Source of the DNA: a virus
Length of the DNA: 20,739 bases
Strand: one strand, 5' to 3'
Virus record (IMG/VR): IMGVR_UViG_3300021373_001860
Span: 1-20,739 of that record
Position numbers and translations under genes: made by a program. Below the pieces are notes generated by a model. It was not told the DNA's origin. It did no database searches and saw only the letters and a program-made list of their open reading frames with translations. Numbering within the stretch: position 1 is the stretch's first letter; the number at the start of each line of letters is the position of its first letter. Of the stretch, positions 1,529 to 14,557 are shown piece by piece.

Positions 1529-1558
1529 AAGTTCTTTTTTGGAAATTTTGCGTTTCGG

Positions 1559-1567
1559 GTGTATAAT
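1559..1567 (+). promoter_or_regulatory. Putative phage late promoter, copy 1
   Basis: GTGTATAAT, with TATAAT at 1562-1567, 43 bases before the start of the 1610 gene. No TTGACA-like box lies at 16-18 bases. The same 9-mer occurs upstream of the portal, protease-scaffold and first appendage genes. This copy has only a short T stretch in front (GCGTTTCGG). Confidence 0.6.
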
Positions 1568-4687: not shown

Positions 4688-5674
4688 ATGAAAAAAGCTA
4701 TTGTTTTTGGCGTTACAGGTCAAGACGGCAGTCACTTGTCGGATCTGCTTTTGAAGAAGGATTACTACGTGGTTGGGGTTTCTAGAAGAGCCAGCACTGA
4801 TAACACTCAAAGAATCAAACATATCCTAAGAAACGAAAGATTCGAGCTGGTCGAAGGCGACATCACAGATGCTCACTCAGTTAATAATATACTTAAAACA
4901 CACGAGAATGTAGATGAAATCTATAATCTAGCTGCACAATCCCATGTGGCAGTGTCTTTCAAACAGCCAGCTCTTACTTGGGATATTACCGGTAAAGGCT
5001 GTCTTAATATTTTACAAAGCATTGTTGATCTTGGTATTAATGCTAGGTTCTATCAGGCTAGTAGTAGTGAAATGTTTGGCAAAAATTATGACGAGATTGA
5101 CGGTGAAAAGTTTCAAAATGAAGACACCAAGTTTATGCCTCAGAGTCCATATGCTATCGCTAAGTGCGCCGCACATTATATGACGAGATTATTTCGAGAA
5201 GGTTATGACATCCATGCTAGCGCTGGTATTTTATTTAATCACGAAGGTGAGCGACGAGGTGAAACATTTGTCACTAGAAAAATCACAAAGTGGATTGGGG
5301 ACTGGGTTAAGAGCGGTCGCGATCCAAACTTTCCAAAGCTGCGTCTGGGTAACTTGGAAGCATTTAGAGATTGGGGGTACGCAGGAGATTACGTGGAAGC
5401 GATGTGGATGATGCTCCAACAGGAAAGTCCGCAGGATTACGTTATCTGCACCGGCGAAACTCATACTATTCGCGAGTTCTTAGACGTAGCATTTTCTCAT
5501 ATTGGTATAGATGATTGGTCTAACTTGGTCGTCCAAGACCCAGAGTTTTACAGACCAGCAGAAGTAGATTATTTACGTGGAGATTGCAGTAAGGCTAATA
5601 ATATTTTAGGCTGGAAACCAGAAAACTCATTTGAAGATTTGGTAAAAAGGATGGTAGATTACGATATACTATGA
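4688..5674 (+). CDS. gmd: GDP-mannose 4,6-dehydratase
   Basis: 328 residues with the diagnostic GMD signature throughout: GVTGQDGSHL at 8-17 (nucleotide-binding loop); VSRRAST at 31-37 (2'-phosphate-binding arginines, typical of NADP(H)); NLAAQSHVAVSF at 80-91; ASSSEMFGK at 124-132; SPYAIAK at 153-159 with catalytic Tyr155 and Lys159; FNHEGERRGETFVTRKIT at 183-200; and LGNLEAFRDWGYAGDYVEAM at 220-239. The enzyme turns GDP-mannose into GDP-4-keto-6-deoxymannose, precursor of GDP-fucose, GDP-rhamnose and perosamine. The usual catalytic Thr of the TSE trio is Ser126, a conservative change also seen in other GMDs. The ATG follows the previous stop by only a few bases. It is the second nucleotide-sugar enzyme of the cluster. 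Auxiliary metabolic gmd genes are known from aquatic phages. Confidence 0.95.
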   Translation: MKKAIVFGVTGQDGSHLSDLLLKKDYYVVGVSRRASTDNTQRIKHILRNERFELVEGDITDAHSVNNILKTHENVDEIYNLAAQSHVAVSFKQPALTWDITGKGCLNILQSIVDLGINARFYQASSSEMFGKNYDEIDGEKFQNEDTKFMPQSPYAIAKCAAHYMTRLFREGYDIHASAGILFNHEGERRGETFVTRKITKWIGDWVKSGRDPNFPKLRLGNLEAFRDWGYAGDYVEAMWMMLQQESPQDYVICTGETHTIREFLDVAFSHIGIDDWSNLVVQDPEFYRPAEVDYLRGDCSKANNILGWKPENSFEDLVKRMVDYDIL

Positions 5675-5934
5675 AGATTTACTGCTTAAAGCTAGATCTT
5701 ACAATGTGTATCTCTAGGCTGAAAAAATTTAACCTAAAAGAATTTAATAGTCCACATCCGGTTATTTTCACCGAAGCAAAAGATCCAGACGACGCTTGTT
5801 ATAAATGTCTTTGCATGTTTACAGAAACACTACTAAAACAAGATGAGTCCAGAGAGACTGCGTTCTTAATTAAAGATATCCTACCAGATGTAAAAGTTAA
5901 AAAGGTTTATTGTAAAGATGAAAAGAAACTATGA
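5671..5934 (+). CDS. Hypothetical protein, 87 aa
   Basis: ATG at 5671 overlaps the gmd stop as ATGA, and the 3' end overlaps the HNH gene by 17 bases, so it is embedded in a coupled operon. The protein begins MKIYCLKLDLTMCISRLKKF and contains five cysteines, including the pair in CYKCLC (43-48), with a basic C-terminal tail (VKVKKVYCKDEKKL). The mixed hydrophobic and charged pattern looks like a small folded domain. No family recognised; no signal or membrane segment. AGGATGG upstream is rather far (about 18 bases), so translation may depend on coupling. Confidence 0.65.
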   Translation: MKIYCLKLDLTMCISRLKKFNLKEFNSPHPVIFTEAKDPDDACYKCLCMFTETLLKQDESRETAFLIKDILPDVKVKKVYCKDEKKL

Positions 5935-6184
5935 AGATCCGGTCTATAAAGAGTGGAGGCAAAGAGTCTATAAGCGCGATAAGTTTAGATGTCAAATGCC
6001 AAATTGTAAATGTAAGTCAAGATTGCAAGCACATCACGTAAGAAAGTGGTCAAGCGCCTCTATGTTGAGATATGATATTGATAATGGAATCACGTTATGC
6101 AGGAAGTGTCATGAGTCAATACACGGTAAAGAACATTTATATGAATCACTATTCATGGAGATAATACGTAAAAATGCCAGCTAA
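5918..6184 (+). CDS. HNH homing-type endonuclease, small
   Basis: 88 residues holding a complete HNH fold: zinc-knuckle cysteines C25 and C30 (CQMPNC), the catalytic HH at 39-40 (LQAHHVRKW), the structural Asn56 in DIDNGITLC, the second knuckle CRKC at 61-64, and H65 and H69 of the third element (HESIHG). The family cuts or nicks DNA with one divalent metal ion. There is nothing outside the nuclease core, so it is of the short HK97 gp74 type often found beside terminases, where such proteins assist packaging-related cleavage, rather than a large homing endonuclease with target-recognition repeats. It overlaps both neighbours by a few bases and sits two genes before the ClpP-like and terminase genes. 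Confidence 0.88.
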   Translation: MKRNYEDPVYKEWRQRVYKRDKFRCQMPNCKCKSRLQAHHVRKWSSASMLRYDIDNGITLCRKCHESIHGKEHLYESLFMEIIRKNAS

Positions 6185-6683
6185 AGCACCTGCCTACACA
6201 GTTATAAAAGATACCAGAGAACAAGACGGTTATACCTTTGAGAAATTCAACGGTAGATACACCTCTTGTAACGGTATGGTTGTTCGCAAGTTAGATACTG
6301 GTGACTACTCACTTGTTGGGCTTGAGGACAAAGTGTGCATAGAAAGAAAGGGCAGGGTTTCAGAATTAGCTATCAATCTTGGAAAAGATAAGTATAGGTT
6401 TATGAGAGAAATTGAAAGAATGAAGGAATTCCCATTCCGATTTCTTATTTTAGAATTTTCTCTTGAAGACGTTATGGATTTCCCAGAAAGATCAGACATT
6501 CCTGAAGAGAAGTGGGATTCTATCAAGGTCACAAATAAATACATGTTAAAAATGTTAATCGAGTTTCAAATGTACGATAACATCCATGTTATATTCTGTG
6601 GTAGCAAGAAAAACGCCAAACTGGTTGTGAACAGCATATTAAAGAGGGTAAACGAATTCTACTCGGTCGGGAGGAAGAAATGA
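6174..6683 (+). CDS. ERCC4 (XPF-type) nuclease domain protein
   Basis: 169 residues. The ERCC4 nuclease core is visible: DTREQ at 13-17, GDYSLVG at 43-49, CIERKGRVSEL at 55-65 and a conserved helix with DKYRFMREIERM at 72-83, followed by the beta-strand FRFLILEF at 88-95. This matches the GD...ERK signature of XPF/Mus81-type structure-specific nucleases, with Asp44, Glu57 and Lys59 the likely catalytic residues. The acidic residue usual after ERKx3 is shifted by one (ERKGRVSE). There is no helicase domain and no clear helix-hairpin-helix tail. Possible jobs are resolution of branched DNA before packaging or recombination-linked repair. It overlaps the HNH gene by 11 bases and the ClpP-like gene by 4. 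Confidence 0.82.
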   Translation: MPAKAPAYTVIKDTREQDGYTFEKFNGRYTSCNGMVVRKLDTGDYSLVGLEDKVCIERKGRVSELAINLGKDKYRFMREIERMKEFPFRFLILEFSLEDVMDFPERSDIPEEKWDSIKVTNKYMLKMLIEFQMYDNIHVIFCGSKKNAKLVVNSILKRVNEFYSVGRKK

Positions 6684-7333
6684 TTAATCCGAATTTATCA
6701 ATTGATACTCTATCAGATATTCATACCTATGGCATAGATGTAGAGAGAAGAGAATTATATCTTCATGGGTATATAGGCAATACGGATGAAGACCCCGGCG
6801 TAGAATACAGAATGGCTGCACAGTTTTATAAGAATATAAGGTTGTTGGACGTAATTAGCAATGAGCCAATCATTATTCATATGTTAAGCGTTGGCGGAGA
6901 GTGGGATTCCGGCATGGCTATCTACGACGCTATGATGCTATGTAATTCATACGTGACAATCGTTACATACGCACAGGCGTCTTCAATGAGCAGCATTATA
7001 CTTCAGGCTGCTGACAAAAGGGTTATGACGGCCAATTCTCACTTTATGCTACACTATGGCTCTGTTGATTGCGGTGGAGATCACCTGAGTGCCCACAACT
7101 ACGCAAAAGTAGATAAGAAAAACACGGAAACCATGATTAGTATTTATGCAAACCGCTGCGTAAAAAGCAAATACTTTAAAGGGCACTATACCGACATCAA
7201 CGAAGAAAAAGTAAAGAACTATCTAAAGAGAAAGCTAAAAGATGGCGACTGGTACTTAGACCCAGAAGAAGCTGTTTACTACGGCTTTGCAGACTGCGTT
7301 CTAGACACTAAGGATATAAATAGCTTAAAATGA
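6680..7333 (+). CDS. ClpP-like serine protease (S14 family)
   Basis: 217 residues with a ClpP fold pattern: LYLHGYIG at 26-33, IIIHMLSVGGEWDSGMAIYD at 64-83 (the usual SPGG loop is SVGG), AQASSMSSIIL at 98-108 with catalytic Ser102, HFMLHYGS at 121-128 with catalytic His125, and DGDWYLDPEEAVYYGFAD at 188-205 with Asp190 in the position of the third triad member. Length matches ClpP. In phages, ClpP-type proteases often act as prohead proteases beside the portal and capsid genes. Here the gene lies directly before the large terminase, with ATGA overlaps on both sides, and a second protease is fused to the scaffold, so its target is uncertain: scaffold, host proteins or another virion protein. 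Confidence 0.85.
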   Translation: MINPNLSIDTLSDIHTYGIDVERRELYLHGYIGNTDEDPGVEYRMAAQFYKNIRLLDVISNEPIIIHMLSVGGEWDSGMAIYDAMMLCNSYVTIVTYAQASSMSSIILQAADKRVMTANSHFMLHYGSVDCGGDHLSAHNYAKVDKKNTETMISIYANRCVKSKYFKGHYTDINEEKVKNYLKRKLKDGDWYLDPEEAVYYGFADCVLDTKDINSLK

Positions 7334-9306: not shown

Positions 9307-9312
9307 CGTTTT

Positions 9313-9321
9313 GTGTATAAT
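9313..9321 (+). promoter_or_regulatory. Putative phage late promoter, copy 2 (portal)
   Basis: GTGTATAAT with a TTTT run in front, in the 80-base gap between terminase and portal. TATAAT is at 9316-9321, 66 bases before the portal start. No -35 consensus. Confidence 0.65.
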
Positions 9322-9386: not shown

Positions 9387-11378
9387 ATGCCTAACGACCC
9401 CATCATTAGCTGGGAAGACGGAGATTCTACAAGTAAAGCCAAGGCTTTCGAGAAATTTTCAGAGTCGCAACAAGCCTACGAGGGTGTAGCTAGAGCTTAC
9501 CACAGAGACTTTTTAGACATTGAGGCAAATAGATCTGTCAAGCCTCATTTTGGCTCAAATGATTACTATGCCTTTAGACCAGAGGAAGAGGTTCCCAGAA
9601 AGTCTAAGCGTGCAATTAAGATGTGTATGGATGCCTACGATAAGGTTGGTATTATTCGCAATATTATTGATCTTATGGGGGATTTTGGTTGCCAAGGCAT
9701 CAACATCGTTCATGAAAATAAGAGCGTTGAAAAGTTTGGACAACAATGGTTTAAAAAGATTGGTGGCAAGGAAAGGTCAGAGAGATTCTTAAACAATCTT
9801 TATAAGACCGGAAACGTATTTGTCTATAGAAGTTATGCAAATATCACGCCAGAAATCAACAAGTATATCAAATCTTTAGCTAGTGATATAAAAGTAGAAA
9901 CACCCAAGATTGAAGAAAACGTCATACCGTGGCGCTATAATTTCTTTAATCCTCTAACTGTAGATATGAAAAATGGGAATATTAGTCTATTCTTAGGTCG
10001 CAAAGACTACGCCCTTACCGCTAACACTTTCTTTGATAACTTTAAAGATGGTACTATTCCAATTAAAGTTTTGGAAACTCTTCCTACTGAAATTAAGAAC
10101 GCTATCAATAGAAAAGACAGGAAGATTGAGTTAGACCCAGAAAGATTATCGGTTCATCATTACAAGAAAGACGACTGGCAACAGTGGGCACACCCTCTCG
10201 TGTACGCTATTCTAGATGATATTATCATGCTTGAAAAAATGAAGCTCGCTGATCTTGCTGCTCTAGATGGTGCAATTTCTAACATCCGACTCTGGACCCT
10301 TGGTGATTTTGACTATAAAGTTTTGCCAACAAAAGAGGGTATCAACAAACTTCGTAATATTCTAGCTAGTAATACTGGCGGTGGGACTATGGAGTTGGTT
10401 TGGGGTCCAGAACTCAAATTCACAGAGAGTAACTCTCAGGTCTACAAATTTTTAGGGTCTGAAAAATACCAGTCCGTTCTAAATAGCATATATGCTGGAT
10501 TGGGAGTTCCTCCTACTCTAACTGGTATTGCCGGTCAGAGTGGTGGATTTACTAATAACTTTATCTCGCTAAAGACTTTGGTCGAGAGATTGCAATACGG
10601 TCGCGATCAACTAACTAGATTCTGGGAAAAAGAATTAGAAGACATTAGAAAAGCTATGGGCTTTAGAAAGCCTTTTCATATTGTATATGACCAAATGAGC
10701 TTGTCTGATGAGGCTTCTGAAAAGAACTTGCTTATTCAACTTGCTGATCGAGACATTATCTCGCACGAAACAGTTCTTGAGAGATTCAAGGAAGTTCCGG
10801 GCGTTGAAAAGGTTAGACTACAGCGTGAAGATAAAGCAAGGGATATAGAAAAATTCCCACCAAAAGCTAGTCCATTCCATAATGCAAACAAGCAGTTTGA
10901 AATGGATAAAATGGATAAACAGGCAGATATTCAAGAGAAGGTTGCAGAAAAGAAGCAATCCCAAAAGCCAGTTCGTGAATCTGGAAGACCACCAAGTTCA
11001 CTAGATGAGGAACCGCGAAAGAAAAGGGTCGATACGCCAAAAAGCACTCCCGGTGTCGCAGAGCTTGTTGTTTGGGCTACATCTGCCTTTGAGTCTGTAG
11101 AGTGTCTGAATAAAGGATACCTTGAGATGAAGTCCAAGGCAAATCTTAGACAACTCACTAAAGACGAGGCCATCGAGCTAGATAATATAAAACTATCTGC
11201 TTTCCTATCTTTTGAGCCTTTGTGCGCACTAAACAATGAAAATATTTTCAAGGCTGTAGCTACAAAATCTTCTATTCCTAAGCAATTTAGAAACTTAAAA
11301 GATGTTAGCACCAGTACCGAAAACTATAAAAAAATTGTTATCGGCACCTATATTCAGTCTGTTATTGATGAGAAATAG
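9387..11378 (+). CDS. Portal protein with C-terminal extension
   Basis: 663 residues; TAGGA ends 8 bases before the ATG. The order matches phage portals: N-terminal wing (about 80-150: GIIRNIIDLMGDFG, YKTGNVFVYRSY), a beta-rich part with NPLTVDM, the stem helix region (PLVYAILDDIIMLEKMK, 270-286) and the crown-facing segment LGVPPTLTGIAGQSGG (372-387) followed by a long helix LKTLVERLQYGRDQL (395-409), very characteristic of portals. The dodecameric ring forms the DNA entry channel and docks terminase and connector. Residues 500-555 are charged and low in complexity; 556-663 form an extra globular-looking domain (VAELVVWATSAFESVECLNK onward) not needed for a portal. It follows a late promoter and is the first head gene. 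Confidence 0.92.
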   Translation: MPNDPIISWEDGDSTSKAKAFEKFSESQQAYEGVARAYHRDFLDIEANRSVKPHFGSNDYYAFRPEEEVPRKSKRAIKMCMDAYDKVGIIRNIIDLMGDFGCQGINIVHENKSVEKFGQQWFKKIGGKERSERFLNNLYKTGNVFVYRSYANITPEINKYIKSLASDIKVETPKIEENVIPWRYNFFNPLTVDMKNGNISLFLGRKDYALTANTFFDNFKDGTIPIKVLETLPTEIKNAINRKDRKIELDPERLSVHHYKKDDWQQWAHPLVYAILDDIIMLEKMKLADLAALDGAISNIRLWTLGDFDYKVLPTKEGINKLRNILASNTGGGTMELVWGPELKFTESNSQVYKFLGSEKYQSVLNSIYAGLGVPPTLTGIAGQSGGFTNNFISLKTLVERLQYGRDQLTRFWEKELEDIRKAMGFRKPFHIVYDQMSLSDEASEKNLLIQLADRDIISHETVLERFKEVPGVEKVRLQREDKARDIEKFPPKASPFHNANKQFEMDKMDKQADIQEKVAEKKQSQKPVRESGRPPSSLDEEPRKKRVDTPKSTPGVAELVVWATSAFESVECLNKGYLEMKSKANLRQLTKDEAIELDNIKLSAFLSFEPLCALNNENIFKAVATKSSIPKQFRNLKDVSTSTENYKKIVIGTYIQSVIDEK

Positions 11379-11389
11379 GTGTTTTTTTG

Positions 11390-11405
11390 AAAAAAAATTT
11401 TTTTT
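11390..11405. other. A8T8 tract before a late promoter
   Basis: Eight A followed by eight T, preceded at 11382-11388 by seven T. Such a tract is self-complementary and intrinsically bent. It abuts the late promoter at 11406-11414 and could act as an upstream activating element, or in RNA as a weak hairpin ending the portal transcript. Confidence 0.5.
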
Positions 11406-11414
11406 GTGTATAAT
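11406..11414 (+). promoter_or_regulatory. Putative phage late promoter, copy 3 (protease-scaffold)
   Basis: GTGTATAAT directly after eight T. TATAAT is at 11409-11414 and the start codon at 11432, so the predicted leader is only about a dozen bases and little more than the ribosome binding site GAGG at 11420-11423. Confidence 0.65.
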
Positions 11415-11431
11415 TGTCTGAGGTAAACAAA

Positions 11432-12934
11432 ATGTCAATAAAAATTTATCAACAAGAAGTTAACGACGGTGTTGGCGATCTCGTCAAGAGCACCGCTAGT
11501 TTTGCGTATTGTTCTGAGGCTACTGTTAAAAAGGGCGAGCTAGCGGTTGCTAAAGAGGTGATCTCTAACGCAGACGTTCTTGAAAGGGTGGTCGCAGAAA
11601 ACAAAGATCAGATAGACCTGTACTATTTAGAGTCTGTTTTGGTTTCCACCGGCTGGAATAAAAACGATGATGTTTTCACCTCAGATTCAACTTGGGCTGC
11701 TAGAAATACCCCCGAAGATAAGCAGTTCAATTTTATGCACAATGAAAACGATATTATCGGTCATATAACCGGAAGTTATGTATTAACCAAAGACGGTAAA
11801 GCTGTAGCAGACGACGAACTGGAAAGACCTGACGAGTTTGACATTATAACTCAAGCTGTTCTCTATAATAGTTGGACCGGAGAAGAGAACAGAGATAGGA
11901 TGAAAAAAATTATTGCAGAAATCGAGCAGGGTAAATGGTATGTTTCGATGGAATGTCTATTTGCTGGTTTTGATTACGCTTTAATTGACGAAAAGGGAGT
12001 TGCAAAAGTTCTACCAAGGGGCGAGGCTTCTGCTTTTTTGACAAAACATCTTAGGGCTTATGGCGGAACCGGAGAATACGAAGGTTATAAGTTAGGTCGC
12101 GCTCTGTCGAATATTTCATTTTCTGGCAAGGGATTAGTATCAAAGCCCGCTAATTCTAGAAGTGTTATATTAAGCAAAAGCGCTGCACAATTCAATGTAG
12201 ATAGTAATTCTATACTTTCAATAGGAGAATTTAAAATGTCAGATGTATTGACAGAGCAATTAGCTGAAGTCAAGGCACAGCTTGAAGCTGCTAAAGCCGA
12301 AAACGAAGCTATTAAAGCTAAAATTGAAGAAGCAAAAGACAAAGAATTTGCTTCCAAGATTAAGGCTTACGAAGTTGAGGCAGAAGAAAGCAAAGCTAAT
12401 ATCGAGCAGCTCAATGAAACTATTAAGTCAACTGAAGCTCGCGTTGCTGAACTTGAAGATGCCCTCGCTCAATCAACTCAGCAACTTGCTGAAGCTAAAG
12501 AGCACATGGAAGAAATGAAGAAGAAGGAAAAAATGGAAAAGCGTAAAGCTGCTCTTGTAGAAGCTGGTTTTGAAGCAGATGACATTGATGCTGCTCTTGC
12601 TGCTTTTGATGGACTTGCTGATGACGCTTTCGATTCTGTTGTTGCAATGTATGGCAAGAAGCCAAAAGCTGACAAGCATGGCGACATGAAGAAGAAAAAA
12701 GACGATGAAGCAGAAGCTGGTATGCCACCAGCTCTTAAAGAAGCACTTGAGAAGAAGAAGGAAAAAGAAGCTAAAGCTGATGAAGAAGCTGAAGCTGAAG
12801 TAACCCCAGAACTTCTTGAAGATGTCGAGACTTCTGAAGCAACTATGGTTGAGCCAGAAGCTGTTGACGAACTAGATCAAGCAAGAGCCAGCGTTGCAGA
12901 CTGGTTCTCTAACCATGTTCTTAAAAACAAGTAA
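11432..12934 (+). CDS. Prohead protease-scaffold fusion
   Basis: 500 residues from the ATG at 11432, with GAGG eight bases upstream; a TTG at 11414 would lie inside the promoter. Residues 1-250 resemble phage maturation proteases of the T4 gp21/HK97 gp4 kind: FMHNENDIIGHITG at 101-114 with probable catalytic His103; WYVSMECLF at 169-177 with probable catalytic Ser172; and GLVSKPANSRS at 234-244, like the conserved VSxPAN element. From 269 on it is a typical scaffold: long coiled coil (TEQLAEVKAQLEAAKAENEA onward), then Lys/Glu-rich segments and an acidic tail ending SVADWFSNHVLKNK. The scaffold directs capsid assembly and the protease removes it before packaging. An internal start at 12236 probably makes the scaffold alone. 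It lies directly upstream of the decoration and capsid genes. Confidence 0.87.
   Translation: MSIKIYQQEVNDGVGDLVKSTASFAYCSEATVKKGELAVAKEVISNADVLERVVAENKDQIDLYYLESVLVSTGWNKNDDVFTSDSTWAARNTPEDKQFNFMHNENDIIGHITGSYVLTKDGKAVADDELERPDEFDIITQAVLYNSWTGEENRDRMKKIIAEIEQGKWYVSMECLFAGFDYALIDEKGVAKVLPRGEASAFLTKHLRAYGGTGEYEGYKLGRALSNISFSGKGLVSKPANSRSVILSKSAAQFNVDSNSILSIGEFKMSDVLTEQLAEVKAQLEAAKAENEAIKAKIEEAKDKEFASKIKAYEVEAEESKANIEQLNETIKSTEARVAELEDALAQSTQQLAEAKEHMEEMKKKEKMEKRKAALVEAGFEADDIDAALAAFDGLADDAFDSVVAMYGKKPKADKHGDMKKKKDDEAEAGMPPALKEALEKKKEKEAKADEEAEAEVTPELLEDVETSEATMVEPEAVDELDQARASVADWFSNHVLKNK
12236..12934 (+). CDS. Nested scaffold protein from an internal in-frame start
   Basis: An ATG at 12236, in frame with the protease-scaffold gene, is preceded by ATAGGAGAATTTAAA: an AGGAG with 8-base spacing. 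This is nearly the same ribosome binding site as those of the decoration gene (TATAGGAGATTTTAACT) and the capsid gene (AAGGAGATTTAAAT), the two other genes expected to be made in bulk. Translation here gives 232 residues (MSDVLTEQLAEVKAQLEAAK onward) starting exactly where the protease domain ends and the coiled coil begins. Lambda C/Nu3 uses the same layout. Codon choice in this half is strongly biased (GAAGCT, GCTGAA repeats) compared with the protease half, as expected for high expression. The evidence is from sequence only. Confidence 0.8.
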   Translation: MSDVLTEQLAEVKAQLEAAKAENEAIKAKIEEAKDKEFASKIKAYEVEAEESKANIEQLNETIKSTEARVAELEDALAQSTQQLAEAKEHMEEMKKKEKMEKRKAALVEAGFEADDIDAALAAFDGLADDAFDSVVAMYGKKPKADKHGDMKKKKDDEAEAGMPPALKEALEKKKEKEAKADEEAEAEVTPELLEDVETSEATMVEPEAVDELDQARASVADWFSNHVLKNK

Positions 12935-12954: not shown

Positions 12955-13449
12955 ATGGCTCTTAAAGCAGATAGATACGAAGAATCGACTGACATCAGTT
13001 TTTTCTATACTGACAGTGCAGTTGTGCGTGGTGGAGTTGTTTGCCTCGAAACACTTAGCGCTTCTGGCGCAGCACTCGATCAAGGCGACAACACCGTTTC
13101 TTACCAGCAGGCAGCGGCTACTGACGTTCCAGTTGGTATTCTTTTGAACGATGTTGTTAACAAAGATCTTACCCGTACTCATCTTAACCAGTACAAAGAT
13201 GAAATCCAACTTGGTGGTAAGGTTACTGTCTTGACTCGTGGTTGGGTTGTCACCAATATGATTGACGGAGCACCAAGTCCGGGCGATGTTGCTTACGCTT
13301 CTGACGCTGGCGGAAACGCTGGCTACATTACTGATGGCGCAGCAGACGCTACTGCCTCTGGCAATCTAGCGATTGGCCGTTTTATGTCCGCAAAGGACGC
13401 AGATGGCTACGCTAAAGTTTACGTAAACCTTCCTAACCACGGTGCCTAA
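12955..13449 (+). CDS. Small head decoration-like protein
   Basis: 164 residues; AGGAG 12 bases before the ATG, in a 20-base gap after the scaffold. It begins MALKADRYEESTDISFFYTD and is rich in Gly, Ala, Val and Asp with short beta strands (VVRGGVVCLETLSAS, VPVGILLNDVV, GGKVTVLTRGWVVTN, NLAIGRFMSAKDADG, YAKVYVNLP). This layout, with GILL and GRF motifs and a position between scaffold and major capsid gene, fits the small decoration or capsid-stabilising proteins of HK97-fold phages. No enzymatic motif. Strong ribosome binding site and codon bias indicate high output. A minor head-completion role is a less likely alternative. Confidence 0.72.
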   Translation: MALKADRYEESTDISFFYTDSAVVRGGVVCLETLSASGAALDQGDNTVSYQQAAATDVPVGILLNDVVNKDLTRTHLNQYKDEIQLGGKVTVLTRGWVVTNMIDGAPSPGDVAYASDAGGNAGYITDGAADATASGNLAIGRFMSAKDADGYAKVYVNLPNHGA

Positions 13450-13474: not shown

Positions 13475-14482
13475 ATGTCATTTACAGAAAGACCTAGTGA
13501 TGAATTCCTCAGTCTTTACAAAAAGACTGGCGATAACGATCAAAACGTGGCTTATGCAGCACAGCGTGAATTCGCTAAAGCTCTTGAGCTTCCACTCCGC
13601 AAGGGCGTTTTGGTTGGTAACATTCTCGGAAATATTTTCGAGACTATCAATGTCGAGCCGGGAGCTTCTACCGAGTATCCTCTCGATCTAATTTCTCCGG
13701 GACTTGAGGGTGAGCACGTAGCTTACACTAATCCCGGTCATGGTCGCGTTCCTGAGCGTGCGGTTGAAAGCGATTACGTCATGATTCCAACCTACAGCAT
13801 CACTTCGAGCATTGATTACTTGCTCCGTTATGCTCGTGAGGCACGTTGGGATGTAGCTGGTCGTGCTGCACAGGTCATGGAAGCTGGCTTCGTCAAGAAG
13901 ATGAACGATGACGGATGGCACACCCTTTTGGCCGCCGGTGTTGATCGTAACATCTTGGTTTATGACGGAGACGCAACTGCTGGTTTGTTCTCCAAGCGAC
14001 TTGTTAGCTTGATGCAAACCGTCATGCGTCGTAATGCTGGTGGTAACACTGGCTCTGCTAATCGTGGTCGTTTGACCGACTTGTACGTTTCGCCAGAAGC
14101 ACTCGAAGACGTGCGAAACTGGGGATTGGATCAAGTTGACGAAGTTACTCGTCGCGAAATTTACACCGCGAGTGAAGGTGGTGCTCCTATCACCCGTATC
14201 TTTGGTGTCAACCTTCACGATCTTGATGAGCTTGGCGAAGGTCAAGAATACCAAGACTTCTTCGTGAACGGACTTGGCGGTGCGTTGGAAGCTAGCGACC
14301 TTGAGTTGGTTGTTGGTTTGGACCAAGGTGCTAATGACAGCTTTGTTATGCCAATGAAGCAAGCACTTCAGGTCTTTGAAGATCCAACTCTCCATCGTCA
14401 GCAGCGAGTTGGCTACTACGGGTGGGCTGAACTCGGATTTGGTGTCCTTGATAATCGTCGCATTATGCTAGGCTCCTTCTAA
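13475..14482 (+). CDS. Major capsid protein (HK97 fold)
   Basis: 335 residues; AAGGAG lies about 9 bases before the ATG. Order: N-terminal helical arm (about 1-45), strand and E-loop region (ETINVEPGASTEYPLDLISP at 56-75), spine helix (SSIDYLLRYAREARWDVAGR at 110-129, continuing RAAQVMEAGFVKKMNDDGW) and a C-terminal A-domain with TDLYVSPEALEDVRNW and GVNLHDLDELGEGQEYQDFF. This is the usual plan of T4-like/HK97-like capsid proteins. It has no separate propeptide of delta-domain size, in keeping with a dedicated scaffold. It stands last in the head operon, directly before the strong terminator at 14511, and its codon use is that of a very highly expressed gene. Confidence 0.9.
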   Translation: MSFTERPSDEFLSLYKKTGDNDQNVAYAAQREFAKALELPLRKGVLVGNILGNIFETINVEPGASTEYPLDLISPGLEGEHVAYTNPGHGRVPERAVESDYVMIPTYSITSSIDYLLRYAREARWDVAGRAAQVMEAGFVKKMNDDGWHTLLAAGVDRNILVYDGDATAGLFSKRLVSLMQTVMRRNAGGNTGSANRGRLTDLYVSPEALEDVRNWGLDQVDEVTRREIYTASEGGAPITRIFGVNLHDLDELGEGQEYQDFFVNGLGGALEASDLELVVGLDQGANDSFVMPMKQALQVFEDPTLHRQQRVGYYGWAELGFGVLDNRRIMLGSF

Positions 14483-14510
14483 TAATCCAATTGAGTTCTA
14501 ATTAATCATA

Positions 14511-14548
14511 AGAGTCATCTCCATATCATTGGTGATGGCTCTTTTTTT
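14511..14548 (+). terminator. Rho-independent terminator after the capsid gene
   Basis: AGAGTCATC (14511-14519) pairs with GATGGCTCT (14534-14542) with one G-T wobble; the loop side can add CCA with TGG. A run of seven T follows (14542-14548). It ends the head operon 28 bases after the capsid stop. Its T-run is also the T-tract of the next late promoter. Confidence 0.88.
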
Positions 14549-14557
14549 GTGTATAAT
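14549..14557 (+). promoter_or_regulatory. Putative phage late promoter, copy 4 (appendage genes)
   Basis: GTGTATAAT directly after the T-run of the terminator. TATAAT is at 14552-14557, 56 bases before the start of the next gene. Same architecture as the copies at 9313 and 11406. Confidence 0.68.

Follow-up and report, generated by a model that had tools for sequence, protein, structure and literature searches.

A conserved internal start signal points to a separately made scaffold within a putative protease-scaffold gene of uncultured tailed phages

A nested protease-scaffold layout is known from lambda C/Nu3 and Mu I/Z. In the lambda annotation, the protease-scaffold gene lies between the portal and decoration genes and contains an in-frame internal scaffold start, so that both products have a common C-terminus. 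In Mu and in the Mu-like phages of Pseudomonas, a head protease gene likewise carries an in-frame internal scaffold start (PMC4378225). Herpesvirus UL26 consists of an N-terminal protease of about 250 residues followed by a C-terminal scaffold, and a shorter co-terminal scaffold is made separately and in excess, with the UL26-derived scaffold accounting for about 10% of the total (PMC12474303). In P2 gpO, an N-terminal protease and a C-terminal scaffold are likewise joined in one chain, which is described as self-cleaving (PMC7552001). The locus described here has the gene layout of lambda C/Nu3 and Mu I/Z. Its family appears in no paper that we found in the open-access literature, nor did we find one there on a phage protease of assemblin fold that contains a nested scaffold start.

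The window, which is the entire 20,739-nucleotide (20.7 kb) stretch of DNA analyzed, comes from an uncultured tailed phage and covers a fragment of its genome. It carries, in order, a ClpP-like serine protease gene (6680-7333), the terminase large subunit gene (starting at 7330), a portal gene (starting at 9387 and named from its position and conservation), the protease-scaffold gene (11432..12934, plus strand, 500 codons, defined by its open frame and its relatives), a capsid cement/decoration gene (12955..13449, plus strand; Phage_cement PF22758 and PF23982, both above cut-off) and the gene of the probable major capsid protein (MCP; 13475..14482, plus strand). The latter product had no match in family searches and is named from its position and codon usage; it is conserved in 86 loci. 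The protease-scaffold gene therefore sits in a head module with the portal on one side and the decoration and capsid genes on the other, a synteny that is maintained in relatives (portal in 90 of 90, cement in 87, capsid in 86). Outside this module, two sugar-nucleotide epimerase/dehydratase-like genes, identified by eye, directly precede the packaging genes (1610-2599 and 4688-5674, the second conserved in 35 loci). Between them and the ClpP-like gene, at 5918-6683, are a small HNH-type gene and an ERCC4-type nuclease-like gene (also by eye), which are conserved in 42 and 44 loci, respectively. After the capsid gene, a hairpin followed by a T-run at 14505-14550 resembles a terminator, and by eye the same T-run begins the next promoter motif.

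Relatives were collected from scans of IMG/VR and one scan of GTDB genomes, giving 251 loci, 203 of them distinct, down to about 35% identity. These fall into three clades, which we refer to as the window, L083 and L084 clades. A tree of 71 representatives sharing less than 80% identity separates them (support 100/98 for the window clade, 100/100 for L084 and 85/47 for L083). Full-length relatives of the protease-scaffold gene are 61-77% identical to it, and tblastn searches with this gene, the portal and the capsid protein against 50,697 phage records returned no match. Four contigs of the L084 clade (L118, L137, L148 and L163) are 201-244 kb long, indicating that the family includes jumbo-sized phages, for which a search with this gene found no isolate. 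As to the host, the three genome-collection matches, to SAR202, Flavobacteriales and Alphaproteobacteria MAG contigs, contradict one another and were not used.

The original prediction, made from the sequence of this DNA, was that an internal start within the protease-scaffold gene yields the scaffold separately from a protease-scaffold fusion. The coordinates of the predicted signal are exact: a Shine-Dalgarno (SD) sequence AGGAG at 12223..12227 is followed, after a spacer of 8 nt, by an in-frame ATG at 12236, which is codon 269 of the frame opened by ATG 11432. Translation from this ATG would give a coiled-coil scaffold of 232 residues (12236..12934, plus strand). Within the window, AGGAG-N5-9-ATG is not a rare arrangement (5 observed vs 3.25 expected), and conservation is therefore the deciding evidence. 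GGAG-N6-9-ATG is present in frame in the linker of 203/203 distinct relatives from all three clades, whereas the same pattern precedes only 5 of the 2131 other in-frame ATGs of these genes and 23 of their 3914 out-of-frame ATGs. The observation is therefore real and above chance, and a chance origin of the internal SD-ATG is ruled out by its conservation across relatives. The typical spacing between GGAG and ATG is 8 nt in the window clade, 6 nt in L083 and 9 nt in L084, with one relative (L121) reading TCGGAG-N9-ATG. In the first 81 window-clade sequences, the internal Met and the upstream TAGGAG are both invariant. The Met is fixed although the surrounding linker varies, and the residue following it is Ser in 180/203 relatives.

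The conservation extends to synonymous sites. Codons 264-266 carry 76 synonymous differences across 54 window-clade representatives that share less than 90% nucleotide identity, against an expectation of 1766. The resulting ratio of 0.043 is smaller than in any other of the 480 three-codon windows scored (mean 1.00, sd 0.21). For a set of 32 representatives below 80%, it rises to 0.078 but is again the minimum. Gly265 is encoded by GGA in 54/54 representatives, a stricter codon fixation than at any other of the 110 conserved columns with four- or six-fold degeneracy. The codon phase of the SD also differs between clades, being read as (ATA-GGA-GA.) in the window clade and as AAG-GAG or NNG-GAG in the other two, so the same DNA signal is coded by different residues. 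In the L084 clade, the first SD codon may specify Ser, Thr, Val, Met, Ala, Pro, Lys or Gln, but it always ends in G. Where it is Ser the codon is TCG in 20/20 cases (4% gene-wide), where Val it is GTG in 18/18 (5%), and where Thr it is ACG in 5/5 (3%), while the Glu that follows is GAG in 63/63 (18%). In addition, Ile-to-Val and Ile-to-Leu replacements leave TAGGAG intact. Amino-acid conservation as the source of the fixed DNA is ruled out by these rare synonyms, the two codon phases and the retention of TAGGAG through the Ile changes. Comparison of the sequences thus indicates that the conserved SD-ATG is a product of selection on a start signal and not on the protein. The outcome is the opposite of a site that is lost while the protein is kept, because the linker protein varies and the SD and ATG are fixed. 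Together, conservation of the SD and ATG over a variable linker supports the original reading, and the phage very probably makes additional scaffold separately from the internal start.

The translation signals and codon usage of the two parts of the gene are informative about their expected output. The internal site is similar to those in front of the cement gene (TATAGGAGATTTTAACTATG, start 12955) and the capsid gene (AAAGGAGATTTAAATATG, start 13475), as had been noted, with computed anti-SD pairing of -7.3 kcal/mol for the scaffold, -7.3 for cement and -8.7 for capsid. The internal SD of lambda Nu3 is similar at -6.9 kcal/mol, and Mu Z also has an AGGAG-type SD of similar strength. The full-length chain has a GAGGT SD at 11420..11424 (plus strand) with a computed pairing of -6.9 kcal/mol, which nearly equals that of the scaffold, and SD strength alone therefore gives no scaffold excess. 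The rise in codon bias noted past the internal site was also confirmed. Relative to cement and MCP, the codon adaptation index (CAI) increases from 0.53 in the N-domain (z -1.4) to 0.79 in the scaffold (z +5.4, both z against background usage), compared to 0.78 for cement and 0.73 for the MCP themselves, so that the codon usage of the scaffold resembles that of a highly expressed gene. In amino-acid-matched comparisons within each relative, the scaffold part is better adapted than the N-domain to that relative's own capsid gene in 64/65, 41/44 and 47/54 cases in the three clades. RNA structure around the internal start shows no excess over shuffles (z 0.18). The initial 80 nt of the presumed transcript do fold more stably than shuffles (z -2.0), but this was given no weight because the principal stem is located 3′ of the start.

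A promoter-like motif, a T-tract followed by GTGTATAAT, occurs at four sites in the window (1553-1567, 9307-9321, 11400-11414 and 14543-14557), all intergenic, vs 0.51 expected. Relatives retain it ahead of the portal, protease-scaffold and post-capsid genes, and it is absent before the cement and capsid genes. The copy before the protease-scaffold gene (TTTTTTGTGTATAAT, 11400..11414, plus strand), where a generic sigma-70 scan gives 11/12 matches, has a -10 element that ends 17 nt 5′ of ATG 11432. It was detected in 82/91 relatives at 5-21 nt from the start, 71 of them at 16-17 nt and 81/82 at 14-21 nt, whereas the motif is 35-65 nt away from the start codons of the portal and post-capsid genes. 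Assuming that transcription begins about 7 nt past the -10 element, GAGGT would be located right at the 5′ terminus of the transcript. A short distance (16-21 nt) is also seen in 33/46 leaders of the L083 clade, and the mRNA of the full-length chain would thus be nearly leaderless in the window and L083 clades. Such a very short leader could lower full-length output despite the near-equal SD pairing. The short distance was not seen in the L084 clade and so is not required for the internal start.

The N-domain (residues 1-268, 11432..12235, plus strand) belongs to no protease family that sequence family searches could find. A search of the window with Pfam PF04586 (Peptidase_S78), taken up to E 10, was negative, and the protease-scaffold gene has no match to Pfam S49. 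In profile comparisons, the N-domain aligns weakly with ten S78 proteins (E 0.012, probability 3.5%), in a 31-column alignment that keeps the GR...NI...PAN motif in register; the same ten-protein set does no better against T4 gp21 (E 0.21). Comparison with the lambda C protease domain using hhalign gave E 0.24 and a probability of 0.3%, which amounts to no similarity. Support for a protease comes from predicted structures. A first AlphaFold2 model (59 sequences, pLDDT 75) had no match in the PDB, and its best match in the BFVD viral library was Prohead serine protease (E 1.2e-5, probability 1.0). For a second model (100 sequences, pLDDT 82), the best nine PDB matches were herpesvirus proteases, with moderate Foldseek scores (E 0.026 upward, thus above 0.001; probability up to 0.93; TM ~0.3). 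H103, H111 and S172 are invariant in the 100 sequences. The N-domain therefore likely adopts an assemblin/prohead-protease fold, and it may be an active protease. The confidence of the models drops under 50 at around residue 250 and beyond, in agreement with the domain boundary near 268 placed by the original prediction, and the linker is predicted to be disordered. The scaffold part matches coiled-coil-type families only, and a PDB sequence search returned only unrelated coiled coils.

These observations suggest a model in which one mRNA with two starts gives two co-terminal proteins from the gene at 11432-12934. Initiation at ATG 11432 would produce the 500-residue chain of a serine-protease-like domain, a disordered linker and a coiled-coil scaffold, and initiation at AGGAG-N8-ATG 12236 would produce the 232-residue scaffold by itself. 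We hold with good confidence that internal initiation supplies this scaffold beside a presumably rarer protease-scaffold chain. Scaffold chains would outnumber fusion chains, and because the scaffold is common to both, the minority fusion would be built into the same assembly as the abundant scaffold chains and the capsid protein. The fusion would in this way bring the protease inside the prohead, where its proteolysis would serve maturation.

Several other explanations can be considered for the origin of the scaffold. The fusion could release it by self-cleavage in the linker with the SD-ATG remaining unused, as in P2 gpO. Protease-scaffold fusions often self-cleave, as with P2 gpO (PMC7552001) and at the R site of herpesvirus UL26 (PMC12474303), and the linker here is predicted to be disordered; self-cleavage leaves unexplained, however, both the fixation of SD and ATG at synonymous sites in 203/203 genes and the change in codon usage at the boundary, which makes it very unlikely as the sole source. 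Linker cleavage may occur in addition to the internal start. A separate, shorter transcript from a promoter within the protease part has a precedent in herpesviruses, where UL26.5 has its own mRNA, and the internal SD would be needed in either case. Nevertheless, the 150 nt ahead of the internal ATG lack the GTGTATAnT motif that precedes the whole gene in 203/203 cases, and a generic scan, which covers promoters of the sigma-70 type, found no plus-strand site within the gene upstream of 12236. A sigma-70 promoter inside the gene was accordingly rejected, and we consider a separate transcript slightly less probable still than self-cleavage. Since SD-like sequences within genes have been proposed to slow ribosomes, the conserved GGAG could instead mark an elongation pause at the domain boundary. 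A pause needs no ATG, yet an ATG follows GGAG by 6-9 nt in 203/203 genes within an otherwise variable linker, and the codon-usage step would again be unexplained; this explanation is extremely improbable.

A different alternative accepts the internal start but not the protease. Here the N-domain would be some other scaffold-linked part, and the ClpP-like product of 6680-7333 (PF00574) would mature the heads. Consistent with this, the ClpP-like gene matches PHROGs named 'head maturation protease' (phrog_94, E 4e-31), adjoins the terminase gene and was found in 41/41 window-clade loci with enough flank, while the N-domain lacks a protease match by sequence. On the other hand, the N-domain resembles prohead proteases and assemblins in its predicted fold and has invariant His and Ser residues. 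In addition, L084-clade contigs of 201-244 kb carry the ClpP-like gene at least 95 kb away from the head genes. We therefore regard this alternative as unlikely, though less so than those above, and favor internal initiation within a protease-scaffold gene.

The original prediction drew a parallel with lambda C/Nu3, and this parallel holds for the gene layout but not for the type of protease. The annotation of lambda C is that of an S49 peptidase, to which the N-domain has no profile similarity and from which its predicted fold differs. Mu encodes its portal elsewhere in the head cluster and shows no sequence relation to this locus; the family-wide synonymous-site conservation of a nested start is demonstrated here and not for Mu I/Z. 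P2 gpO also combines protease and scaffold in a single chain, but its source, in the part available (PMC7552001), describes self-cleavage and does not mention an internal start. The HK97-type prohead protease (Peptidase_S78) shares the order of His, Ser and PAN motifs, the fold-level match and the weak in-register alignment, but has no scaffold fusion. Because the predicted N-domain fold is nearest to prohead proteases and assemblins, herpesvirus UL26/UL26.5, with its protease-then-scaffold layout and the proteases closest to our model in the PDB, is a closer analogue than lambda C/Nu3. This likeness is one of predicted fold, as no sequence similarity to the herpesvirus proteases is detectable, and in herpesviruses the scaffold is started as a gene of its own (UL26.5) and not from an internal ribosome site. 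More tentatively, and with a probability somewhat short of even, the locus may be a phage counterpart of UL26/UL26.5: an assemblin-fold protease-scaffold of a widespread family, whose ratio of chains is set by translation through a nearly leaderless fusion mRNA in two clades and a strong internal scaffold start. Annotation software that calls a single ORF per frame would overlook the scaffold, and our analysis now labels the head genes of a family without a tblastn match in the searched phage records. Tailed phages and herpesviruses share a common capsid ancestry. If an assemblin-like protease with a fused scaffold and nested start is indeed present here, the herpesvirus arrangement would fall within phage diversity, and this phage lineage could serve as a bacterial model of it.
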